Shown: positions 3 through 17,842 of the stretch, in pieces | Layout: every line of letters starts with the position of its first letter | Numbering within the stretch: position 1 is the stretch's first letter | IMG/VR virus record: IMGVR_UViG_3300031841_000030 | Span: 1 to 20,002 of that record | Strand: one strand, 5' to 3' | Length of the DNA stretch: 20,002 nucleotides | Source: a virus | Notes under the pieces: model-generated | The model's database searches: none | Told to the model about the DNA's origin: nothing | Seen by the model: only the letters and a program-made list of their open reading frames with translations | Position numbers and translations under genes: made by a program

Positions 3-371
3 TGGTACGTTAGATGCGTTTAAATGATATATTCTTGCTGTTGTTGTTGTTGAAGATGTGTCAGATGAATTGCCGTATCCACCACACCAACCCGTGCCAC
101 CTGTATTGTTTCTTATATTAAAGCCAATTGTGCTATGATTTTTGTTTGACATTGCACTCGCCAGCGTATGCGTTATGTCGCCAGTTCCGTTATCTGTAAA
201 TGATGTTGCGTTGAAACTGTCCTCAACGGTATCGTCCAATTCTATACTGCAAAACGCCTTCGCCAACCCCTGTTGCAAATTAGTCGTGGTTGAGTTGCCC
301 TCGCCAGTAATCGCAATAGACCCAGCGGTGGCTATACCTGTAATTGTATCTACTTTAAGTATGCTTGCCAT
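3..371 (-). CDS. Accessory tail protein of the GDLA cassette family, C-terminus beyond the window
   Basis: Partial gene: 123 codons are visible and the 3' end runs off the left edge. The protein opens with MASILKVDTITG, then a block TAGSIAITGEGNSTTTNLQQ that is almost identical to the same block in the gene at 3236-3625. A DSFNATSFTDNGTGD stretch follows, the family's central motif. After that the sequence is unique and rich in Ser, Thr, Gly and Asn. No signal peptide, membrane segment or enzyme motif is visible. The start overlaps the stop of the preceding gene by one base (TAATG) and uses a GGAGA ribosome-binding site lying inside that gene. From memory, proteins with this motif layout are common and uncharacterised in marine phages. 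Placement behind the fibre gene suggests a virion tail or fibre-tip component, which is inference. A short ACA-codon run encodes four threonines near the visible end. Confidence 0.8.
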   Translation of the reverse strand, partial: MASILKVDTITGIATAGSIAITGEGNSTTTNLQQGLAKAFCSIELDDTVEDSFNATSFTDNGTGDITHTLASAMSNKNHSTIGFNIRNNTGGTGWCGGYGNSSDTSSTTTTARIYHLNASNVP

Positions 372-385
372 TATGCGAGGTCTCC
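371..385 (-). promoter_or_regulatory. Ribosome-binding site embedded in the Gly-Asp-Leu-Ala codons of the preceding gene
   Basis: GGAGA at 381-385 lies nine bases before the ATG at 371 and encodes Gly-Asp of the upstream protein's C-terminal GDLA. The stop TAA shares its last base with the start ATG (TAATG), a layout suited to termination-reinitiation. Confidence 0.75.
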
Positions 386-784
386 CATAATTGCAATCAT
401 GTGGTCTTGGTCAGAGTAAGAACTTCCTGTATATGTTCTTGATTGCACTTTTGTTGTTGTAGTGTTTCCGTCTGGACACCACCATTGATTAATATTATTA
501 GTAAGTGAAAGTTGTGCAGAGTATTCCCCATTTGCCATATTATTAGTATAATTATGAGTCATTAGACCAGTACCATCATCCTGCATAGATGCTACATTAA
601 AACTATCTTGAATGGTTGCACTAGGTTGTGTTGCAAAATTCCAACACTTACACAGCCCCTGAACAGTATTTTGTGTAGCAACGCCACCCTCTGCTACATA
701 AGTAGATGTATTATCCATCTTAACATTAGAACCGCCAGAGCCAGCCTTATCTACAATGGTATCTACATTTAATTGACTTGTCAT
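371..784 (-). CDS. Accessory tail protein of the GDLA cassette family
   Basis: A 137-residue protein. I start it at the ATG at 784, which gives an ATGA overlap with the preceding stop and matches the paralogs' beginning (MTSQLNVDTIVDKAGSGGSN). A longer reading would need a TTG start four codons upstream. The centre has IQDSFNVASMQDDGTG, the family motif, followed by a run typical of the family (THNYTNNMANGEY). The C-terminal half is divergent (WWCPDGNTTTTKV) and the protein ends IMGDLA. Its last codons include GGAGA, which sits nine bases before the next gene's ATG. Three Cys-containing positions (LCKCW and WWC) are unusual among the paralogs. No known enzymatic domain is visible. Likely an external tail or fibre-tip protein, by context only. 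Confidence 0.82.
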   Translation of the reverse strand: MTSQLNVDTIVDKAGSGGSNVKMDNTSTYVAEGGVATQNTVQGLCKCWNFATQPSATIQDSFNVASMQDDGTGLMTHNYTNNMANGEYSAQLSLTNNINQWWCPDGNTTTTKVQSRTYTGSSYSDQDHMIAIMGDLA

Positions 785-1239
785 ACGATGCTCCAATACC
801 CGTTAACAGTCACGGTTGCGTTCTGTGTGATTGGCCCTGCACTCACGCCATTCTCATCGCTGTCAATCGTAATGTCTGCAGAGATAGTCTGACCGTTCAG
901 ACGGATGATGCTGTTGTTGCCCTTGAATGGATAGCGTGTATCCGATTCAGTTTTGGTGTACGAGTTCGCAATGCTAAACGTATCGTAGGACACCATCTCA
1001 ACGATGTCATTTAGGGATGCCCCTGTAACTAACACAACGCTAGTACCTGTCGTAGCAGCATAGTCTGTACCCGGCTTGAGTAGCACACCATTCTGATACA
1101 CGTCTAGGTACAAGCTATCCTGATAAGTGAGTGTCTTACTGTCTGCGTCACTACCACTAAAACTAGTCTGACCAGCAGTAGCTTGGTAGACAAAGCGGTT
1201 GCGAACACCGAACTCTGGGGATTTACCTATGTAGGGCAT
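781..1239 (-). CDS. Tail-fibre domain protein (single beta-domain plus fibre-type tail)
   Basis: A 152-residue protein. The ATG at 1239 is preferred to an upstream TTG because it forms a TAATG overlap with the stop before it and has GAGGAG eight bases upstream. It begins MPYIGKSPEFGVRNRFVYQA, a start I recall from many marine-phage tail-fibre-related proteins. Residues of about 20-90 (TAGQTSFSGSD, LYLDVYQNGVLLKPGTDY) look like the small beta-sandwich often repeated in phage fibres. SYTKTESDTRY follows, like the collar motif of many fibres. The end (SAGPITQNATVTVNG) resembles the end of the 149-residue protein at 3996-4445. Probably a separate fibre segment or tip attached to the main fibre. 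Function is inferred from domain type and position. The gene's TGA overlaps the next ATG (ATGA). Confidence 0.8.
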   Translation of the reverse strand: MPYIGKSPEFGVRNRFVYQATAGQTSFSGSDADSKTLTYQDSLYLDVYQNGVLLKPGTDYAATTGTSVVLVTGASLNDIVEMVSYDTFSIANSYTKTESDTRYPFKGNNSIIRLNGQTISADITIDSDENGVSAGPITQNATVTVNGYWSIV

Positions 1240-1460
1240 TATGACCACTCCTCTGTGGGTGCAGTAGGCCAAGTAGGATTATCAGGCGTACTTTTTCTAA
1301 TGGTGCGGATGCTTGCACGATATGTAGAAAACAAGGAAACACAAGCATCTGTCAAGCCGCTATCTGGTAGTTGTGTCCAATCGGTTGCTTTAAGAAGCTG
1401 GTCAGCCGTTAGCTTAATATCATCGTTAGGTGCTATAGGAATATTTTTATAATTTGCCAT
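1239..1460 (-). CDS. Tail assembly chaperone-like protein (Phage_tail_APC type)
   Basis: A 73-residue protein. The C-terminal two thirds, with TDWTQLPDSGLTDACVSLF, then YRASIRTIRKS and PDNPTWPTAPTEEW, follow the pattern I know from the Pfam family Phage_tail_APC (phage tail assembly chaperone). That pattern is a DWTQL.D motif, a helix with YR...R, and a W-P proline-rich end. Proteins of this kind sit beside tail-fibre genes and are thought to help fibres fold or assemble. They are not expected to be enzymes. Here it lies between the C1q-like gene and a fibre-domain gene, so either could be its client. It starts four bases after the previous stop and ends in a TAATG overlap. The family call is from recalled pattern, not a search. 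Confidence 0.75.
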   Translation of the reverse strand: MANYKNIPIAPNDDIKLTADQLLKATDWTQLPDSGLTDACVSLFSTYRASIRTIRKSTPDNPTWPTAPTEEWS

Positions 1461-1464
1461 TGCT

Positions 1465-1962
1465 CTATCCTATATACATCATGCTAAAGTTATGTTTAAG
1501 ATTTGATGTGTCGGGTATTCCATATCGGTCATCAAAACCTACATAAATTTTATCACCCTCATCGCACTGATAAAATAATGTAGTGCCTGTGCTATATTGG
1601 CTATAATCATTAAAAGCAAAATGGTAAATTAAATTTGTATAAGTTGAACCATCATAATGATACATTATTGCAGAATTATAATTGGTTGTTGTAGTACTAG
1701 CAGTAACCCAAGTTATTTGATAAATACCACCAAATCCTGTTGGGATTTCTGCATAACCACCTGCGTTTAACAAACTACCAACATCAATATCTGTCGTTGT
1801 CCACGAGGTAATATAATCAAAATTAGTATTTGCTGCTGTTAATGATGTGCTTGTAGCGCAACCTCTGGCAGAAAAAATAGGACGCTGTGGATGTGCAACA
1901 CGACCACTGCTGTTAATGGTTAAGCCAGATATACCTGAACCTGTTACCTTAGTCAACGCCAT
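1465..1962 (-). CDS. C1q-like jelly-roll tail protein
   Basis: A 165-residue protein with the spacing of a C1q/TNF-like beta jelly roll: FSARG at 30-34, NFDYITSW near 48-55, FGGIYQITWVTAS at 77-89, a glycine-tyrosine strand near 100-115, LFYQCDEGDKIYVGFDD at 129-145 and a closing FSMMYIG at 159-165. Globular C1q domains trimerise and bind diverse ligands. In phages they are found at the ends of fibres, so a receptor-binding or fibre-capping role is plausible. The N-terminus (MALTKVTGSGISGLTINSSG) is a short linker of the kind that may dock to another fibre protein. The ribosome-binding site is GGAG seven bases before the ATG. A possible terminator-like hairpin precedes it, so it may have somewhat separate expression from the genes upstream. 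A profile search would settle the domain. Confidence 0.7.
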   Translation of the reverse strand: MALTKVTGSGISGLTINSSGRVAHPQRPIFSARGCATSTSLTAANTNFDYITSWTTTDIDVGSLLNAGGYAEIPTGFGGIYQITWVTASTTTTNYNSAIMYHYDGSTYTNLIYHFAFNDYSQYSTGTTLFYQCDEGDKIYVGFDDRYGIPDTSNLKHNFSMMYIG

Positions 1963-1973
1963 CTACCTACTCC

Positions 1974-2002
1974 AAAAAGGGGAAGCCCCACGCATTATGC
2001 GT
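1974..2002 (-). terminator. Tandem hairpins with T-tract, possible weak terminator
   Basis: On the minus strand a 5-bp hairpin with a three-base loop (1990-2002) contains the stop codon of the upstream gene. It is followed directly by GGGG-CTT-CCCC (1979-1989) and five T residues (1974-1978). The second stem is only four base pairs, so termination would be partial at best. The next gene's ribosome-binding site follows at once. Confidence 0.35.
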
Positions 2003-2366
2003 AAGGGCTATCACCAAGTACGTCTGTATCCCAAGCTGCTTTTAGTGCTGCAATATTAGCTGCATTAGTAATTGCAGATGCTGCTGGGGCATTACGAAGA
2101 TTATTCTTCTTTGTTACAGAAGCAGCTTGTGCATCTGTGTCACCAGCTTCAAGTGCTTTCATGTACACTACGTCTTCTGCTTCAAGCAGAGGCGCACGAA
2201 CTTCACGGATTTTGTCCTTGAAGATTACTTTGGCTGCGTCCATATCTTCTGATATAACTTTGCCACTCAATGACCATGCACCACGAAAGTGACGGTCAGA
2301 AGGAACGGTTGCCGCAGAAGCATCTATCTGATTCCCGTCCTTGTCTACGATGTATGTTGTTGCCAT
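1995..2366 (-). CDS. Tail-associated protein, possibly a fibre assembly chaperone
   Basis: A 123-residue protein. It starts at ATG 2366 behind GAGGAG. The middle, with RHFRGAWSLSGKVISEDMD, AKVIFKDKIREVRAPLLEAE and VYMKALEAGD, is mostly helical and charged. It resembles small proteins I recall next to tail-fibre genes in many phages, where a conserved FR-x-W motif leads into a KIR..R.P.L helix. An Ala-rich helical C-terminus follows. There is no signal peptide or membrane segment. The position between a likely chaperone-type gene (2380-2853) and a jelly-roll fibre protein suggests help with folding or attaching fibres. That role is inference. Confidence 0.6.
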   Translation of the reverse strand: MATTYIVDKDGNQIDASAATVPSDRHFRGAWSLSGKVISEDMDAAKVIFKDKIREVRAPLLEAEDVVYMKALEAGDTDAQAASVTKKNNLRNAPAASAITNAANIAALKAAWDTDVLGDSPYA

Positions 2367-2379
2367 TAGGTTTCTCCTC

Positions 2380-2853
2380 TTAGGCTGCTAAATCAGTGAC
2401 GGTTAGTTCTTCAGTTATCTTCCAAGCATTGCGCCACTCCCTAGTGCTTGGTAACTGTTCTTTGCTGCAAATAACCATCTTAGGTTTATTGCCTGTATTC
2501 CAATCCCGCCAAACGTGCTGGGGGCAGTCTTTCATAATTAGATACTCAATTGCCTGTTCTTCTGTCATGGCTTCTACTGGCTCAGTGTTATGCAGCAGAT
2601 AGCCACGAGTATGTTTTTTAAAGTCTGGCTGTGCTTCATCTTTAGCAAGTTCCCAGTATACCCACACTGGCGGTAGTATGCCGCCCTGTAACGCACAAGC
2701 CATCCAATTAGGGTCTGGTACAAGTATCTTAGCGCACTCGTCAATGCTGTCTTCGTAGACTACACGGTACTCTGATTGATAGCCCTCTAGGTTTTCTTTC
2801 GCCCAGCACAGTCTATCCCATAAGTGTGTGCCTTGAAATTCAGGTGTGTCCAT
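2380..2853 (-). CDS. Hypothetical tail-region protein, possible fibre assembly factor
   Basis: A 157-residue protein. The ATG at 2853 is chosen over an upstream TTG because it makes the TAATG overlap and lies nine bases after a GGAGA site. It begins MDTPEFQGTHLWDRLCWAKE and is rich in Trp and acidic residues, with several Cys. It looks like a compact soluble protein rather than a fibrous repeat: it lacks the Ser/Thr/Gly/Asn bias of its neighbours. The C-terminal part (KMVICSKEQLPSTREWRN) is the most distinctive. I do not recognise the family with confidence. It sits between a GDLA-family gene and another helical small protein, so a chaperone or assembly role for the neighbouring tail proteins is possible but unproven. 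Confidence 0.6.
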   Translation of the reverse strand: MDTPEFQGTHLWDRLCWAKENLEGYQSEYRVVYEDSIDECAKILVPDPNWMACALQGGILPPVWVYWELAKDEAQPDFKKHTRGYLLHNTEPVEAMTEEQAIEYLIMKDCPQHVWRDWNTGNKPKMVICSKEQLPSTREWRNAWKITEELTVTDLAA

Positions 2854-2867
2854 TATGCTAAGTCTCC
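2853..2867 (-). promoter_or_regulatory. Ribosome-binding site embedded in GDLA codons
   Basis: GGAGA at 2863-2867, nine bases before the ATG at 2853, encodes Gly-Asp of the upstream protein's GDLA end. Stop and start overlap as TAATG. Confidence 0.75.
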
Positions 2868-3236
2868 ATGAATGGTACAAATAGTATCTGTCATATTATA
2901 CTTCGTTGCGTTTGCAGCATATTTAGTTTCAAAACGAACAGACCCTGTTGCTATTGATGTAAGTTCCAAACCTGTGTAAAGATTACTAGAATCGTGGCTT
3001 CCTAAAACTAGAGGCGCATAATTTACATCCGCTAATGAACTTGTAAAATTATTAGTGAAGTCACCTGTACCGTGGTCTGTGATGCTACTGTGATTAAAAC
3101 TTCCTCTAGCCGCTGGTGTGGTCGCTGTTCCATCAAATGCCAGCCAATTCTTCGCACTACCATTCACAACGTACTGCGTATCAACCGACCCTGCGGTGCT
3201 GTGTTCCAGCGTATCTGCTACAATCTTTCCAGCCAT
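2853..3236 (-). CDS. Accessory tail protein of the GDLA cassette family
   Basis: A 127-residue protein. It starts MAGKIVADTLEHSTAGSVDT, keeping the family's xDTL/I and TAGS positions, but lacks the long GEGNSTTTNLQQ block seen in two paralogs. The centre, GSFNHSSITDHGTGDFT, matches the shared motif (SFN..S.TD.GTGD), followed by NNFTSSLADVNYAP. The C-terminal half differs from all paralogs and ends with IHGDLA. The start overlaps the previous stop (TAATG) and uses that gene's GGAGA. No enzyme motif is visible. Probably a virion protein at the tail or fibre tip, by context and family recall. Confidence 0.82.
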   Translation of the reverse strand: MAGKIVADTLEHSTAGSVDTQYVVNGSAKNWLAFDGTATTPAARGSFNHSSITDHGTGDFTNNFTSSLADVNYAPLVLGSHDSSNLYTGLELTSIATGSVRFETKYAANATKYNMTDTICTIHGDLA

Positions 3237-3250
3237 TATGCTAAATCTCC
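3236..3250 (-). promoter_or_regulatory. Ribosome-binding site embedded in GDLA codons
   Basis: GGAGA at 3246-3250, nine bases before the ATG at 3236, encodes Gly-Asp of the GDLA end of the gene at 3236-3625. TAATG overlap. Confidence 0.75.
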
Positions 3251-3625
3251 GTGTACTACGCCATTATGCTCTCTTTCTCTTGCTGTTGCACCATCTGTTC
3301 CATCTTGTATTTTTAATACAAAAGTGCTAGTTGCCCTAGAACTGTTAAATACAATTTCTGCATTATTTTGAGCAATAATTCCTACTGCTGCAAAGTTTGC
3401 ACTAGCCATATTTGAAGAAAACGTATAAGTATTATCCCCAGTACCATTATCTGTTAAACTAGCGATATTAAAACTGTCATCAATATTAGAACTTACATCA
3501 ACATTTAACCACGCCTTAGCCAACCCCTGCTGAAGATTAGTTGTCGTGCTATTACCTTCACCTGTTACAGCAATAGAGCCAGCAGTGCTTGTACCAGTGA
3601 GCGTGTTTACAAGAATGGTACTCAT
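3236..3625 (-). CDS. Accessory tail protein of the GDLA cassette family
   Basis: A 129-residue protein. Its first 40 residues hold TAGSIAVTGEGNSTTTNLQQ followed by GLAKAW, shared almost perfectly with the partial gene at the left end of the window. The central motif is DDSFNIASLTDNGTGD, then TFSSNMASANFAAVG. The C-terminal half is unique, with a charged stretch (GATAREREHNG), and it ends VVHGDLA. The ATG overlaps the preceding TGA as ATGA, with GGAGA six bases upstream. The conserved N-terminal block may be the part that attaches to the virion or binds a chaperone, and the variable C-terminal half the exposed part. This split is inference from the pattern of conservation. Confidence 0.83.
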   Translation of the reverse strand: MSTILVNTLTGTSTAGSIAVTGEGNSTTTNLQQGLAKAWLNVDVSSNIDDSFNIASLTDNGTGDNTYTFSSNMASANFAAVGIIAQNNAEIVFNSSRATSTFVLKIQDGTDGATAREREHNGVVHGDLA

Positions 3626-3999
3626 ACTAAGTCTCCTACTGAAACACTTGCGTCAAGTTCCATGTCTGTCGCTGTTGTGGTTTTATAAGTCAAGACTTGA
3701 TACCCTGTTGTAACTTGTGTAGTAACAGAGTTTCCACCCCCCCTTACGCTGGTGTCATTTTGACCGCTGGATGTATCTGAAGAAGAGGCAGTAGTGGCAA
3801 AACCCAGAGAAAGATTAGACGTAAAATTAGCCTGATGTCTTCCTGCAGCCGCATCGTCAACACTGCTTATATTAAAACTACCATCAATATTTGTGTTGGC
3901 GTGGTCGTACATTAAACGTGCTTTAGGAACTTCTTGCTTAGTCAGCGTAGCCGCACCGCCAGAGGTGTTCTGAATTGTATCTGCCTTTAACGTACTCAT
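3622..3999 (-). CDS. Accessory tail protein of the GDLA cassette family (divergent member)
   Basis: A 125-residue protein. It begins MSTLKADTIQNTSGG, the clearest form of the family start, and has NIDGSFNISSVDDAAAG in the centre, where the usual NGTGD is replaced. NFTSNLSLGFATTAS follows. The C-terminal half is rich in Ser, Thr, Gly and Asp and ends SVSVGDLV, a variant of GDLA. A run of seven G residues (3737-3743 on the plus strand as C) codes for part of Arg-Gly-Gly-Gly and could be a slippage site. The ATG forms an ATGA overlap with the gene before it. Likely a tail or fibre-tip component, by context. Confidence 0.8.
   Translation of the reverse strand: MSTLKADTIQNTSGGAATLTKQEVPKARLMYDHANTNIDGSFNISSVDDAAAGRHQANFTSNLSLGFATTASSSDTSSGQNDTSVRGGGNSVTTQVTTGYQVLTYKTTTATDMELDASVSVGDLV
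3625..3636 (-). promoter_or_regulatory. Ribosome-binding site embedded in GDLV codons
   Basis: GGAGA at 3632-3636 lies six bases before the ATG at 3625 and encodes Gly-Asp of the upstream protein's GDLV end. Stop and start overlap as ATGA. Confidence 0.7.
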
Positions 4000-4445
4000 A
4001 GCGTCACCAATGTACCACCAGATTCAACGGTGAGTGTCACACCGCTGGCTACTGTAAGTGGCCCTGTTACGTTAGCGTTCTCTGTTGCCAGAATGGTTGT
4101 GTTAGAACTAAGTGTTTGTGCGTTGGTACGAAAGATGCCGCTTGCCTTAAACGTACCCTTGTTTTCTGCGGCAGGTGTTACAGACGCTGCAGACACACCC
4201 ATGTAGATTACGAAGATGTTACCTGTTCCGCTTGATGGTGCTGCAGTAAAGGTGAGTGTTGTACCGTCTGGCACAGTGAACGCATCAACACTTTCCTGTA
4301 CGACACCATCTACAGATACAATGATGTCTTCCTGAGTTACCGTTTGGCTCAGAGTAAACGTGGTTGTAGACCCGTCACCATTAAACTCTTGGGTGGCAGG
4401 TCTAGCCTGAAAACTTGCAGTGATAGGATTACCGATTAAAGGCAT
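3996..4445 (-). CDS. Tail-fibre domain protein
   Basis: A 149-residue protein. Residues of about 17-85 (QEFNGDGSTTTFTLSQTV, then IIVSVDGVVQESVDAFTV, then LTFTAAPSSGTGNIFVIY) are a beta-domain found repeatedly in tail fibres: an F.GDG..TTFTL entry, a VSVDGV.Q turn and an exit strand. The second half (NKGTFKASGIFRTNAQTLSS, TGPLTVASGVTLTVESGG) looks like the repetitive beta-strand shaft that ends many marine-phage fibres. It starts ten bases after the previous stop, with AAGGA upstream, and ends in an ATGA overlap. It is probably a separate fibre segment that assembles with the 635-residue fibre. Confidence 0.82.
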   Translation of the reverse strand: MPLIGNPITASFQARPATQEFNGDGSTTTFTLSQTVTQEDIIVSVDGVVQESVDAFTVPDGTTLTFTAAPSSGTGNIFVIYMGVSAASVTPAAENKGTFKASGIFRTNAQTLSSNTTILATENANVTGPLTVASGVTLTVESGGTLVTL

Positions 4446-4840: not shown

Positions 4841-6748
4841 CTAAAGTGCAATCGCCATAGCCACTGCAAAACCTGCTGTAGCACCTGCTGATGGAAGGTT
4901 AGTAAGCTGTGAGCCATCAACTGCTGGCAGTCTAGCTGACCCATCAAGTTGTACTACATTGTTTGCACTTGTACCTACAGTCTGTGTAGCGGCTGTACCT
5001 AAACCAAGTGTAGTACGTTGCGCTGATGCATCTGCGTCATCTAACAGTGCTTTACCTGCTGCTGTCAGGTCGTAGGTTGCGGCTGTTCCTGACCCGGTAA
5101 ACTGAATACCTTTGTCTGCTGCAGATGTCAGACCAGCAATAGCAGCCAGTTCTGCATCGTAGGCTTGTACATCAGTACCAATAGCTAGGCCAAGTGTAGT
5201 ACGCTGGGCAGAAGCATTTGCATCATCAAGTAATGCTTTACCAGCAGCAGTAAGGTCATATGTTGCCGCAGTACCACTACCTGTAAACTGAATACCCTTA
5301 TCAGCAGCAGATGTTAAACCTGCTAGTGCTGCAAGTTCTGCATCGTAGGCTTGTACATCTGTTCCAATAACCAAACCAAGATTAGTACGTGCAGCAGATG
5401 CAGTGCTTGCACCTGTACCACCATCGGCTACAGCCAAGTCACCTGAAGACGTTACAGTTGACAGGTCAATAGTTGGGCTAGTTAAAGTTTTGTTAGTAAG
5501 TGTTTGTGTTCCTGTTAGCGTAGCCACAGTGCTATCAATGTTTAGAGTAGCAGAGCCAGAAGTAGCACCACCAGAAAGGCCAGTACCTGCAACCACGGCT
5601 GTAATATCACCAGCACCTAAACCTGAAACAGAAGAATCTACATATGCTTTAATAGATTGTTGTGTAGCTAACTGTGTAGCACTATCTGAAGCCATGTTAT
5701 CTTCATCAAGTACGGCAGTACCACTTACTGCAGTATTCAGTACAGCAGAAGTCAGTGTTTTATTTGTAAGTGTCTGTGTGCCTGTAAGGGTAGCTACAGT
5801 GCCATCTATTGCAAAGGTTACTGCATTACCCAAGCCAGATGTATCAATGCCTGTGCCGCCTGTAAACGTCATTGTTTCACTATCTAAGTCAATAGATAAT
5901 GCGCCACCGCTATCTGCTTGGAAATCTAAATCTTGTGCTGTTACTTGGGAATCAACATATGCTTTAATTGACTGCTGAGTTGCCAACTGAGTAGCACTGT
6001 CGGATGCCATGTTGTCTTCATCAAGAATAGCTGTACCACTGACACCTGTATTTAGTACAGCACTTGTTAGTGTTTTGTTGGTAAGGGTTTGTGTACCTGT
6101 TAGTGTAGCAACTGTGCTGTCAATAGCAACAGTAAGTGTCTGACTAGAACCGCTTGTATCAATACCTGTGCCACCAGCAATTGTAAATGTCTGGCTATCT
6201 AAATCTACTGCTAATGCACCACCAGAGTCACCTTGAAAGTCCAAGTCTTGTGCTGTTAGTTGTGCATCTACATATGCCTTGATAGACTGTTGTGTAGCTA
6301 AAGCGGTAGCACTGTCAGAGGACATATTGTCTTCATCAAGAATGTCCGTAACAGTAGTAGTAGGCATTGCAATGCTATCTACATATGCAACACCGTCAAT
6401 GTATAAATCTTTAAACTCTTTTCCGCTTGACCCTAAGTCAATGTCGTTATCTGTGGTTGGTTCAATTAAACCGTCTTTAACAATAAACTGTTCTGTAGAT
6501 GTGCCAGATACATCAATATTAAATTCTACTTGATTATTTGTATCGTCAACTACAACTTTATTTTTAGGCGTAGCAACACCGGGGTCTCCAATTAAACCAA
6601 TAACTGGACCTTCAGCCGCAGTGCCATCATGCTTATGACCTGTAGTATTACTAAATACATTGACTAGCTGGTTGAACTCGTCATTACTGTCGGCAGCATT
6701 AATAATGTCGCCATCAGTAAATGAGGACTGTCTGGTATAACCTGCCAT
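4841..6748 (-). CDS. Repeat-built tail fibre protein
   Basis: A 635-residue protein. Residues 1-60 ([34 protein letters not shown]) form a virion-attachment-type N-terminus common in phage fibres. Residues 136-427 hold almost three copies of a 105-residue repeat with [23 protein letters not shown] and the widespread fibre motif [14 protein letters not shown]. Residues 441-456 ([16 protein letters not shown]) are another classic fibre linker. Residues 457-580 hold two copies of a 62-residue repeat with [14 protein letters not shown] and [18 protein letters not shown]. The end ([20 protein letters not shown]) is also fibre-like. Such proteins form trimeric, mostly beta or coiled shafts that contact the host. 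There is no clear receptor-binding head, so the tip may be supplied by the small genes that follow. The start forms a TAATG overlap with the tubular protein B-like gene. Confidence 0.9.
5009..5380 (-). repeat. Two tandem copies of a 186-bp (62-residue) repeat in the tail fibre gene
   Basis: Copies at 5195-5380 and 5009-5194. The proteins differ at 3 of 62 positions, while the DNA differs at 42 of 186 positions by my count (about 77% identical). Nearly all changes are synonymous. Confidence 0.9.
5468..6343 (-). repeat. Almost three tandem copies of a 315-bp (105-residue) repeat in the tail fibre gene
   Basis: Copies at 6029-6343, 5714-6028 and a shortened third copy at 5468-5713. The first two agree at 86 of 105 residues by my count. 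The strongest conservation is in [23 protein letters not shown] and [17 protein letters not shown]. The third copy replaces the middle section with a shorter Gly-rich one. Confidence 0.85.
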
Positions 6749-16002: not shown

Positions 16003-17562
16003 TTAGTATCCAAAAGTAGCATCTGCAACTTGCATACCGCCACTGGGTCTACCCATAGGGTCATAATCAAATATACTAAACCTTGGTCGTGACATTATAC
16101 CATACCTTAACGCATCGTACAAGTGGTCTTCTGCTTTCGTGTCCACATCTTCTGGATTTTTCTTATCCAAAGGTATGGACGGTAGTTGAGATATGATGTT
16201 TGTGCAACTATCAAAGAAAACAAGTCTAGGCTCCTCTGTAAATTCGTCTACCTGTAAACGTCTGTGTATTTCGTTTTTACCTGCTACACGACTGCCACGG
16301 CTGCGGTCTGACGGTCTCCACCGACAACCTCTGCTTATCATCTGTTCCGCAAGAGACGGTCCAGTATCACCACGCTTATGCCAAAGACTGCTATCCAAGA
16401 CACCATATTTAATATTTCCATCTTCAGCCTCTAGTTCCAGTATCATGTCAGCCAAGTCCGTTGCTAGGACTTTTGACACATACAATTCCCTGTACACAAT
16501 GATTTGCTCAGACGGTGCGACAGCGCACCATACAACACCACTGTAAGAACCATACCCGTAATCACATGCTCTAAACTTAACCCAATTGCTAGGAATATTA
16601 AAAGGTTCAACAACATGAATATCACGGTCAAACTCTGTGAACGCAGCACCTTCTTTAATATCCCAATCACCTTGGAGGAGTTGTCTTCGCTGCTGCTCTG
16701 GGAGCGACAGGAGCATAGCTTCGTAGTCACCTGCTTCAGCGAGATACGGGTTGTCAGATAATCTAGCAGGAATGAACCTACGTTTAAATAGTGGCTTCCC
16801 AGCTTTGCTATGCCCTGCTGGATACCTGAGAGTTTCACCTGTTTCAATATCTGTCGCATCGTATGCCTTGTTATATGGTGCTGGGTCAATAAACATTTTC
16901 TTTACCCAGTGATGACCTCTTCCACCGGGGTTTGTTGTTGCCCTCATAAAGATGGGCAAGTCAGGGGCAGTGGACCGTAGACGACTTCGCATGTAGTTCC
17001 ATGCATATGGGCTTCCCCATTGGGTCAGTTCGTCAAAGCCTATCCAGCTAAAAGCTAGACCCTGATAACGCAGGACATCTTCATCTCTGTCAAGGTATGA
17101 CATCCACAACCTCGCACCAGATGGCGCAGTCCACTGCATCTTTCTTTCTGACCACTTTATTCCGGGCCAGATTTTTGGATAGAGTTCCTGTGATTTAAAT
17201 ATTAGTTCACGTAACTCTTCCGTAGTGTGTCGGAGCAGCAGACCACTAAACTGTGGATGCCCCATGTAGCGAAGCGGGTCTGCAAGCATGGCATATGATT
17301 TACCACCACCTGCTGAACCACCGTAAAGAACTTCACGCTCAGATGCTGCAAGAAAGTCTGTCTGTGGGCCGGGGTTAGGTTTAAATAGGACATTAGCGTG
17401 TTCTTCAACTGCTTCTGTTTCGTACTCAATATCCCGTATATCAACCTGCGGCTTTTGCTCCTGTTCTTGCTTCTTCAATCTCTTTCGCTTTGGAGATTGC
17501 CTTTTCCGCATACTCTGCCCACTTGCGGAGGCTTGCAGCTTGGTTCTTACGCTGTCGCTCAT
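16003..17562 (-). CDS. terL: Large terminase subunit (packaging ATPase and nuclease)
   Basis: A 519-residue protein. ATPase: GGSAGGGKS (81-89) is the Walker A loop, IGFDEL (174-179) the Walker B with Asp177 and catalytic-type Glu178, and RATTNPGG (207-214) the coupling motif. Nuclease (RNase H-like): acidic residues in RACDYGYG (Asp334), GVLDSS (Asp390) and KAEDHLYDALRYG (Asp479/Asp483). It cuts concatemeric DNA and pumps it through the portal. ATG 17562 gives a first 40 residues that are basic and lie entirely inside the preceding gene. An in-frame ATG at 17511 would shorten the overlap to 71 bases, and neither has a strong ribosome-binding site. No plausible ATG lies between the overlap and the conserved start of the ATPase domain, so a long overlap is required either way. 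Confidence 0.93.
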   Translation of the reverse strand: MSDSVRTKLQASASGQSMRKRQSPKRKRLKKQEQEQKPQVDIRDIEYETEAVEEHANVLFKPNPGPQTDFLAASEREVLYGGSAGGGKSYAMLADPLRYMGHPQFSGLLLRHTTEELRELIFKSQELYPKIWPGIKWSERKMQWTAPSGARLWMSYLDRDEDVLRYQGLAFSWIGFDELTQWGSPYAWNYMRSRLRSTAPDLPIFMRATTNPGGRGHHWVKKMFIDPAPYNKAYDATDIETGETLRYPAGHSKAGKPLFKRRFIPARLSDNPYLAEAGDYEAMLLSLPEQQRRQLLQGDWDIKEGAAFTEFDRDIHVVEPFNIPSNWVKFRACDYGYGSYSGVVWCAVAPSEQIIVYRELYVSKVLATDLADMILELEAEDGNIKYGVLDSSLWHKRGDTGPSLAEQMISRGCRWRPSDRSRGSRVAGKNEIHRRLQVDEFTEEPRLVFFDSCTNIISQLPSIPLDKKNPEDVDTKAEDHLYDALRYGIMSRPRFSIFDYDPMGRPSGGMQVADATFGY

Positions 17563-17842
17563 GTTGTAACCGCTTTCTTAATCCTACATGCGATATGTAT
17601 CTACCGCTATTTGTACTAAGCCAGTTAGCTACCTCACGATAGCTGTATTGATTTGTATACGCTCTGGCCTTTTCAAGCAAATCCAACTCAGTTGGAATGG
17701 GGTCAAGAATGTCGGGGTCTTCTTCGTTTTGCTTGTAACCAAATGGTACAGTACGTGCAATGCGTGGTATCTGTACCCATTCGTTTTCTTCTTTAATGTC
17801 TGTTGGCTGTGGTAACTTCCAACGTCCTGCTGTTCTAGTCAT
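17441..17842 (-). CDS. DNA-binding-like packaging-region protein (second small-terminase candidate)
   Basis: A 133-residue protein just before the large terminase and overlapping it by 122 bases. The N-terminus (RTAGRWKLPQPTDIKEENEW and RIARTVPFGYKQNEEDPDI) and the section YSYREVANWLSTNSG followed by HVGLRKRLQHE match a family I recall immediately upstream of terL in many phages. The latter section reads as a helix-turn-helix. The C-terminal 40 residues are a charged helix (ASLRKWAEYAEKAISKAKEI), the part encoded in the overlap. Either this or the protein at 18525-18899 could be the true small terminase. It forms a TAATG overlap with the gene before it. Confidence 0.65.
   Translation of the reverse strand: MTRTAGRWKLPQPTDIKEENEWVQIPRIARTVPFGYKQNEEDPDILDPIPTELDLLEKARAYTNQYSYREVANWLSTNSGRYISHVGLRKRLQHERQRKNQAASLRKWAEYAEKAISKAKEIEEARTGAKAAG

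Follow-up and report, generated by a model that had tools for sequence, protein, structure and literature searches.

Terminal GDLA codons as a probable start signal for the next gene, and a frequent breakpoint of knob exchange, in a tail-gene array of HMO-2011-type marine phages

Why should a family of phage tail genes with hypervariable bodies end, gene after gene, in the same four residues, and why should those residues be written in nearly the same codons each time? The question is raised by an array of small genes on the minus strand of a viral DNA of 20,002 nucleotides (the window, which is the 20 kb IMG/VR virus record IMGVR_UViG_3300031841_000030), where five genes match the tail fiber protein family PHROG 11355 (phrog_11355; E 5e-8 to 1.5e-15) and the four of these with a complete 3' end close on GDLA or GDLV. 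An earlier note on this DNA had proposed that the peptide is conserved partly because its codons, which contain GGAGA, are a translation signal for the following gene, and that the junctions form plug-in cassettes. We consider it very likely, from sequence comparison, that the array encodes receptor-binding tips, each made of a slot-specific tag, a swappable knob and GDLA, whose codons would be both the Shine–Dalgarno sequence (SD) of the next gene and a frequent breakpoint of recombination. The window is a fragment of an HMO-2011-type marine phage: its terminase is 87% identical to TerL of Puniceispirillum phage HMO-2011 and its tail genes stand in the same order.

How regular is the junction? 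Our sample covers 224 loci, gathered by database searches (the best 80 loci in each locus search) and from two cultured phages, and contains 616 distinct complete genes of the family; the genes are related and hence not independent, and the argument rests on large-sample percentages, not on p-values. GDLA is the C-terminal end of 587 of the 616, and its glycine codon is GGA in 576 of these 587 (98%), against 21% of the glycine codons inside the same genes; GGC and GGT, which make up 66% of glycine codons in the bodies, never occur there (0/587). The other terminal codons differ from the bodies as well: GAC, 89% against 37%; GCA, 87% against 38%; and for leucine, CTC, 43% against 6%, and CTG, 0% against 16%. 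Internal GD dipeptides are written GGAGAY in 158 of 491 cases. With redundancy controlled by taking one gene from each of 405 knob clusters, formed at 50% protein identity, 384 of 392 GDLA genes still have GGA. In 596 of the 616 genes (~97%) the following start, an ATG, is found at +2 (TAATG) or −1 (ATGA), the overlap class being set, in nearly all usual slot pairs, by the downstream gene (ATGA before an MS start, TAATG before an MA start). Terminal GGAGA with an adjoining ATG goes beyond chance. Folds of 81 nucleotides at the junction gave z-scores of −2.0, 0.3, −0.6 and 0.6, with no consistent structure.

Is GGAGA there as an SD, or does it come along with the peptide? When the peptide varies, the signal stays: GSLA is written GGGAGT, GVLA is GGAGTC or GGAGTT, GELA is GGAGAA, and GGLA is in some cases GGAGGC. 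Where the alanine codon before TGA is GCT, the overlapping start is TTG, and where it is GCG, the start is GTG. Distant homologs supply the natural control. Those without a start within 8 nucleotides, most of which end in IFR or VFR and others in FSS, lack an SD-like 4-mer in their last 15 coding bases in 134 of 137 cases, and where a start farther than 8 nucleotides away was scored, the SD follows the stop in 87 of 132. Coupled distant homologs carry it inside the gene in 14 of 17 (Fisher p = 1.7e-14 for coupled against uncoupled), encoded in GDLA, GSLA, GGQA, GGR (FGGR), GGNS (FGGNS), LGA or GETNA, the last of these (GGGGAGACAAACGCATGA) holding it in another frame. A near class of these homologs ends in FGD or HGD, with GGAGAT, and has its ATG 5–6 nucleotides past the first base of the stop. 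Even non-homologous genes of the array have the same signal near their stops, in WSIV (TATTGGAGCATCGTATGA) and PEKP (CCGGAGAAACCATAATG).

Since coupled homologs and unrelated neighbours thus encode GGAG-like sequence in other peptides or other frames, we read the GGAGA of the GDLA codons as the SD of the next gene, kept as such. That the peptide is shaped by its own DNA, as the earlier note suggested, is supported by this split between coupled and uncoupled homologs. The check that the note proposed on operon-ending homologs was run on distant ones, since nearly all close-family members are followed by a gene, operon-ending members being essentially absent from the sample; distant homologs that have no close downstream start lack GDLA, and their SD stands mostly after the stop. 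A stop and start that overlap or touch, with an SD inside the upstream gene, is the arrangement of termination-reinitiation, and we infer that a ribosome ending one gene can start the next. Two single cases depart from the rule: in locus L060 at 5439 (GGAGAACTCGCG) the next ATG is 19 nucleotides away and GGAGA is still kept, and in L018 the gene ends SDLA (AGTGATTTGGCA), with no SD, and is followed by TAGGAGATATG. We also observed that the WSIV gene (MPYIGKS...WSIV) has GGAG-N7-ATGA in another reading frame and keeps WSIV in about 50 distinct junctions, and that in L188 (934–1732) a slot 3 knob gene and the MxTPEFQ-type gene behind it form a single open frame of 266 residues, past whose stop lies the SD for the next gene.

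What, then, moves between these junctions? Across 495 gene pairs that agree in the N-terminus but not in the body, ~95% of the DNA is identical between the junction and roughly nucleotide +100; identity falls to ~33% in the body and returns to 99% from exactly 12 nucleotides before the stop. Body identity is bimodal: the N-termini are 93–97% identical, yet 171 of 201 pairs lie below 60% and almost none at 60–80%. The reverse also occurs: 121 pairs have different N-termini but a common body (DNA identity of 75% or more, up to 100%), and in the 69 cross-slot knob pairs with at least 85% body identity, homology runs from an AK codon near residue 25–46 to the stop. In those 69 pairs the leucine codon of GDLA matches in 39%, against 77% in the preceding ten codons, and the stop codon in 52%; the 3' breakpoint therefore often falls inside the GDLA codons. 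Among the knob clusters found on two or more contigs, 52 of 101 occupy two or more slots (~87 would be expected if slots were random). The unit exchanged, as the alignments have it, is the C-terminal knob, bounded by the AK codon and GDLA, and the N-terminus ahead of it is specific to the slot.

The order of the array, by comparison, is largely fixed, with eight N-terminal slot types (assigned from text patterns, so that a few divergent tags fall outside): slot 1, STLKADTI; slot 2, STILVN or SEI; slot 3, AGKIVAD, ALGKIKAD or FGTLKAD; then MxTPEFQ and MATTYIVD genes, a variable slot 4, MPYIGKS...WSIV, slot 5 (TSVLNVD), slot 6 (ASILKVD), slot 7 (ASELRVN) and, only sometimes, slot 8 (SKAAEL). Whole-gene events are rare, and they too are broken at junctions: slots 2-3 are exchanged with 6-7-8 in L050 and L055 (the L050 arrangement was found in two data sets), slots 2-3 are duplicated in tandem in L085, and the order breaks in L073, L178, L192, L196 and L223. 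Also rare are mini-genes of 8–22 codons that look like slots without their knob and still pass on a start and the next SD: MSTVVLDTITGKSTATFYGDLA and MASIGDLA in L028 (at ~5535 and 5986), MASIGENK in L065 (at 3329) and MAGTIIADTLTEVLK in L206 (at 1395). The plug-in cassettes of the earlier note thus survive in part; the breakpoints do lie at the GDLA junction, but whole genes are not the usual moving unit, and we rejected their exchange as the usual event because gene order is mostly fixed. It is the knob that moves. Separately, we saw three slot 6 tags (L086 at 7164, L085 at 5277, L072 at 7595) on another C-terminal body, annotated in HMO-2011 as a C1q domain, that ends in GYLLG or GYLVG, not GDLA.

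In the window (Table 1), the four minus-strand junctions are as they had first been read, with GGAGA 9, 9, 9 and 6 bases before the ATG, and so are the downstream genes: three of them are paralogs, the last cut off by the left edge, and the fourth encodes an MDTPEFQ-type protein. The gene before slot 1 resembles the T7 tail-fibre N-terminal domain, under the Pfam cut-off, and the knob genes had no significant Pfam match.

Table 1. The array and its junctions in the window
Feature	Positions	Strand	Remarks
Slot 1 knob gene (MSTLKADTIQ...GDLV)	3622..3999	-	phrog_11355; slot from N-terminus
Slot 2 knob gene (MSTILVNT...GDLA)	3236..3625	-	N-terminal tag ~3518-3625, knob ~3251-3517
Slot 3 knob gene (MAGKIVADTLEHS...GDLA)	2853..3236	-	
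Conserved non-knob MDTPEFQ-type gene, MDTPEFQGTHLWDR	2380..2853	-	comes after slot 3 in arrays
MPYIGKS...WSIV gene, non-knob	781..1239	-	end TATTGGAGCATCGTATGA; GGAG 791-794
Slot 5 knob gene (MTSQLNVD...GDLA)	371..784	-	phrog_11355
Slot 6 knob gene (MASILKVD...)	3..371	-	phrog_11355; cut at window left end
Gene before slot 1	3996..4445	-	end TTGGTGACGCTATGA: GGTGA, weak SD-like
Junction at stop 3622: GGAGACTTAGTA, GGA GAC TTA GTA (GDLV)	3625..3636	-	putative SD GGAGA 3632-3636
Junction at stop 3622: ATGA overlap (GTATGA)		-	slot 2 start at 3625
Junction at stop 3236: GGAGATTTAGCA-TAATG, GGA GAT TTA GCA	3239..3250	-	TAATG 3234-3238; putative SD for slot 3
Junction at stop 2853: GGAGACTTAGCA-TAATG, GGA GAC TTA GCA	2856..2867	-	TAATG 2851-2855; putative SD for MDTPEFQ gene
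Junction at stop 371: GGAGACCTCGCA-TAATG, GGA GAC CTC GCA	374..385	-	TAATG 369-373; putative SD for slot 6

Upstream of the array (4841-6748) lies a long tail fibre of 635 residues with visible internal repeats, which two tail-fibre families of PHROG each match over three stretches, and the terminase large-subunit open reading frame (16003-17842) overlaps its upstream gene by ~120 nucleotides, as it does in HMO-2011. How far does the family reach? A search of bacterial and archaeal genome contigs with the slot 2 gene found no relatives, nor did a Vibrio-phage homolog used as query, and an alignment of five paralogs, made for a profile search of viral contigs, had no conserved stretch. One locus, L318 (NC_023841, Dunaliella viridis virus SI2), is recorded with an algal host, perhaps wrongly; it has tailed-phage genes, a homolog of the MxTPEFQ protein and an annealing protein like Erf.

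What would the exchanged knob be for? An AlphaFold model of a knob gene product (mean pLDDT, the predicted local distance difference test score, 82) has a beta-sandwich at residues 36-125, with GDLA as coil past the last strand. Structure comparison placed it nearest the Pam1 tailspike (Z 8.2), phiAB6 (8.0) and AP22 gp53 (6.9), with Z 5.2 for R-pyocin fibre and Helix agglutinin. The hypervariable beta-sandwich is probably the receptor-binding part, and the tag of ~25-45 residues probably the docking part.

The mechanism we propose is simple. Each small gene would consist of its tag, its knob and the GDLA tail, and a ribosome leaving one would start on the next from the GGAGA in the tail's codons, at an ATG that overlaps or abuts the stop. 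Recombination between the AK codon and GDLA, with its 3' crossover often within the GDLA codons, would replace the knob. Since both boundaries, AK and GDLA, are constant, a swap would leave the reading frame and the tag intact, together with the stop and the SD and start of the following gene, and new binding tips could be exchanged without breaking the operon. One may be tempted to go further and see a standardised coupler, twelve coding bases that would be C-terminal peptide, ribosome-binding site and recombination boundary at once, selected partly for exchangeability and serving a joint library of hundreds of lectin-like knobs, any of which could be joined to any one of about eight docking tags; this we regard as possible, and rather doubtful.

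Could the tetrapeptide simply be a protein feature, a fold cap, trimer contact or docking tail, with the SD incidental? Leucine and alanine argue for it, each being kept in 610 of the 616 genes with five and four codons in use, respectively. Yet a requirement for glycine would hardly shun GGC and GGT, and uncoupled distant homologs of the same fold do without GDLA, GGAG is encoded within different peptides in coupled homologs and unrelated neighbours, and the model leaves GDLA outside the last strand; we find this reading very unlikely. That the 12 nucleotides are kept mainly as a recombination anchor, with the SD secondary, would suit the breakpoints within them and the enrichment of GAC and CTC, which exceeds what an SD requires. 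But GGAG alone persists when the peptide changes, the leucine codon varies within the supposed anchor, and uncoupled homologs have their SD elsewhere, all of which make an anchor unlikely. Finally, this may be ordinary operon economy, in which any overlapping pair has the SD of its second gene inside the first, and GDLA is common to the paralogs by descent alone. Termination-reinitiation from intragenic SDs is indeed general (PMC6728339), and that part holds for the SD here; descent leaves unexplained the fixed glycine and aspartate codons beside saturated bodies, as well as the junction breakpoints and the cross-slot exchange, and we think this reading unlikely.

The array of tips with exchangeable knobs, which we prefer, has difficulties of its own, and several findings weigh against it. 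Leucine and alanine show a protein-level selection that an SD alone cannot explain; fixed in spite of varied codons, they indicate that the peptide is also selected, and the translation signal is therefore only part of the reason for its conservation, with GDLA having an additional role as protein. Among cross-slot pairs with at least 95% body identity, leucine codons still match in 65%, so that in some transfers GDLA travels with the knob. Metagenome assemblies, in which repeats can give chimeras, make up most of the loci; cultured HMO-2011 (NC_021864) has the same GDLA junctions, and its knobs are shared with other contigs in different slots. No dedicated recombinase for the exchange was identified; the HMO-2011 genome has genes for a tyrosine integrase and for endonuclease I of the T7 type. 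The likeness of the knob to tailspike and tail-fibre tips and H-type lectins is borderline, at a best Z of 8.2, and Foldseek against the PDB gave no match below E 0.1.

Two familiar diversity systems do not fit the array: the genes stand in tandem on one strand, not in an invertible tail-fibre segment or shufflon, and overlaps of 4 or 1 nucleotides leave no room for the attC sites of an integron cassette array. As to a diversity-generating retroelement, no reverse transcriptase is annotated in HMO-2011 (no template search was made), and the variation is whole-domain replacement. A literature search with GDLA as a phage term returned no relevant paper, and the open literature, most subscription papers lying outside the search, gave no account of the junction or of cross-slot exchange. 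If we are right, a concrete mechanism is at hand for the hypervariable islands of host-recognition genes in abundant marine phages, with an exchange unit, both its breakpoints and a reason why swaps preserve expression. A codon-level translation signal would then fix part of a protein C-terminus throughout a family, in which the synonymous sites, the frame-shifted neighbours and the uncoupled homologs serve as internal controls.

Much of this has precedents. The tail fiber gene cluster of HMO-2011 (NC_021864) is the same array, its genes annotated mostly as tail fiber or hypothetical. In marine phages, metaviromic islands had already marked host-recognition genes as the variable part, and tail-fibre C-termini as the most variable (PMC3909814); under-recruitment was reported there, and what is added here is the position of the exchange unit and of its breakpoints. 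Modular receptor-binding proteins, such as those of the branched Ackermannviridae tailspike complexes, likewise join a conserved N-terminal anchor to an exchangeable C-terminal domain, with several per phage and recombination among them (PMC11414711); ours differ in being single-domain knobs of ~90 residues in 6-8 co-directed slots, exchanged across slots, with a coding junction that would also initiate the next gene. It is already known that overlapping genes can have intragenic SDs and that these act in reinitiation (PMC6728339), and those pairs have the same ATGA or TAATG overlaps with the SD inside the upstream gene. What sets this array apart from them is that one SD-encoding C-terminal tetrapeptide appears to be standard over hundreds of divergent paralogs, and to be a recombination breakpoint as well.

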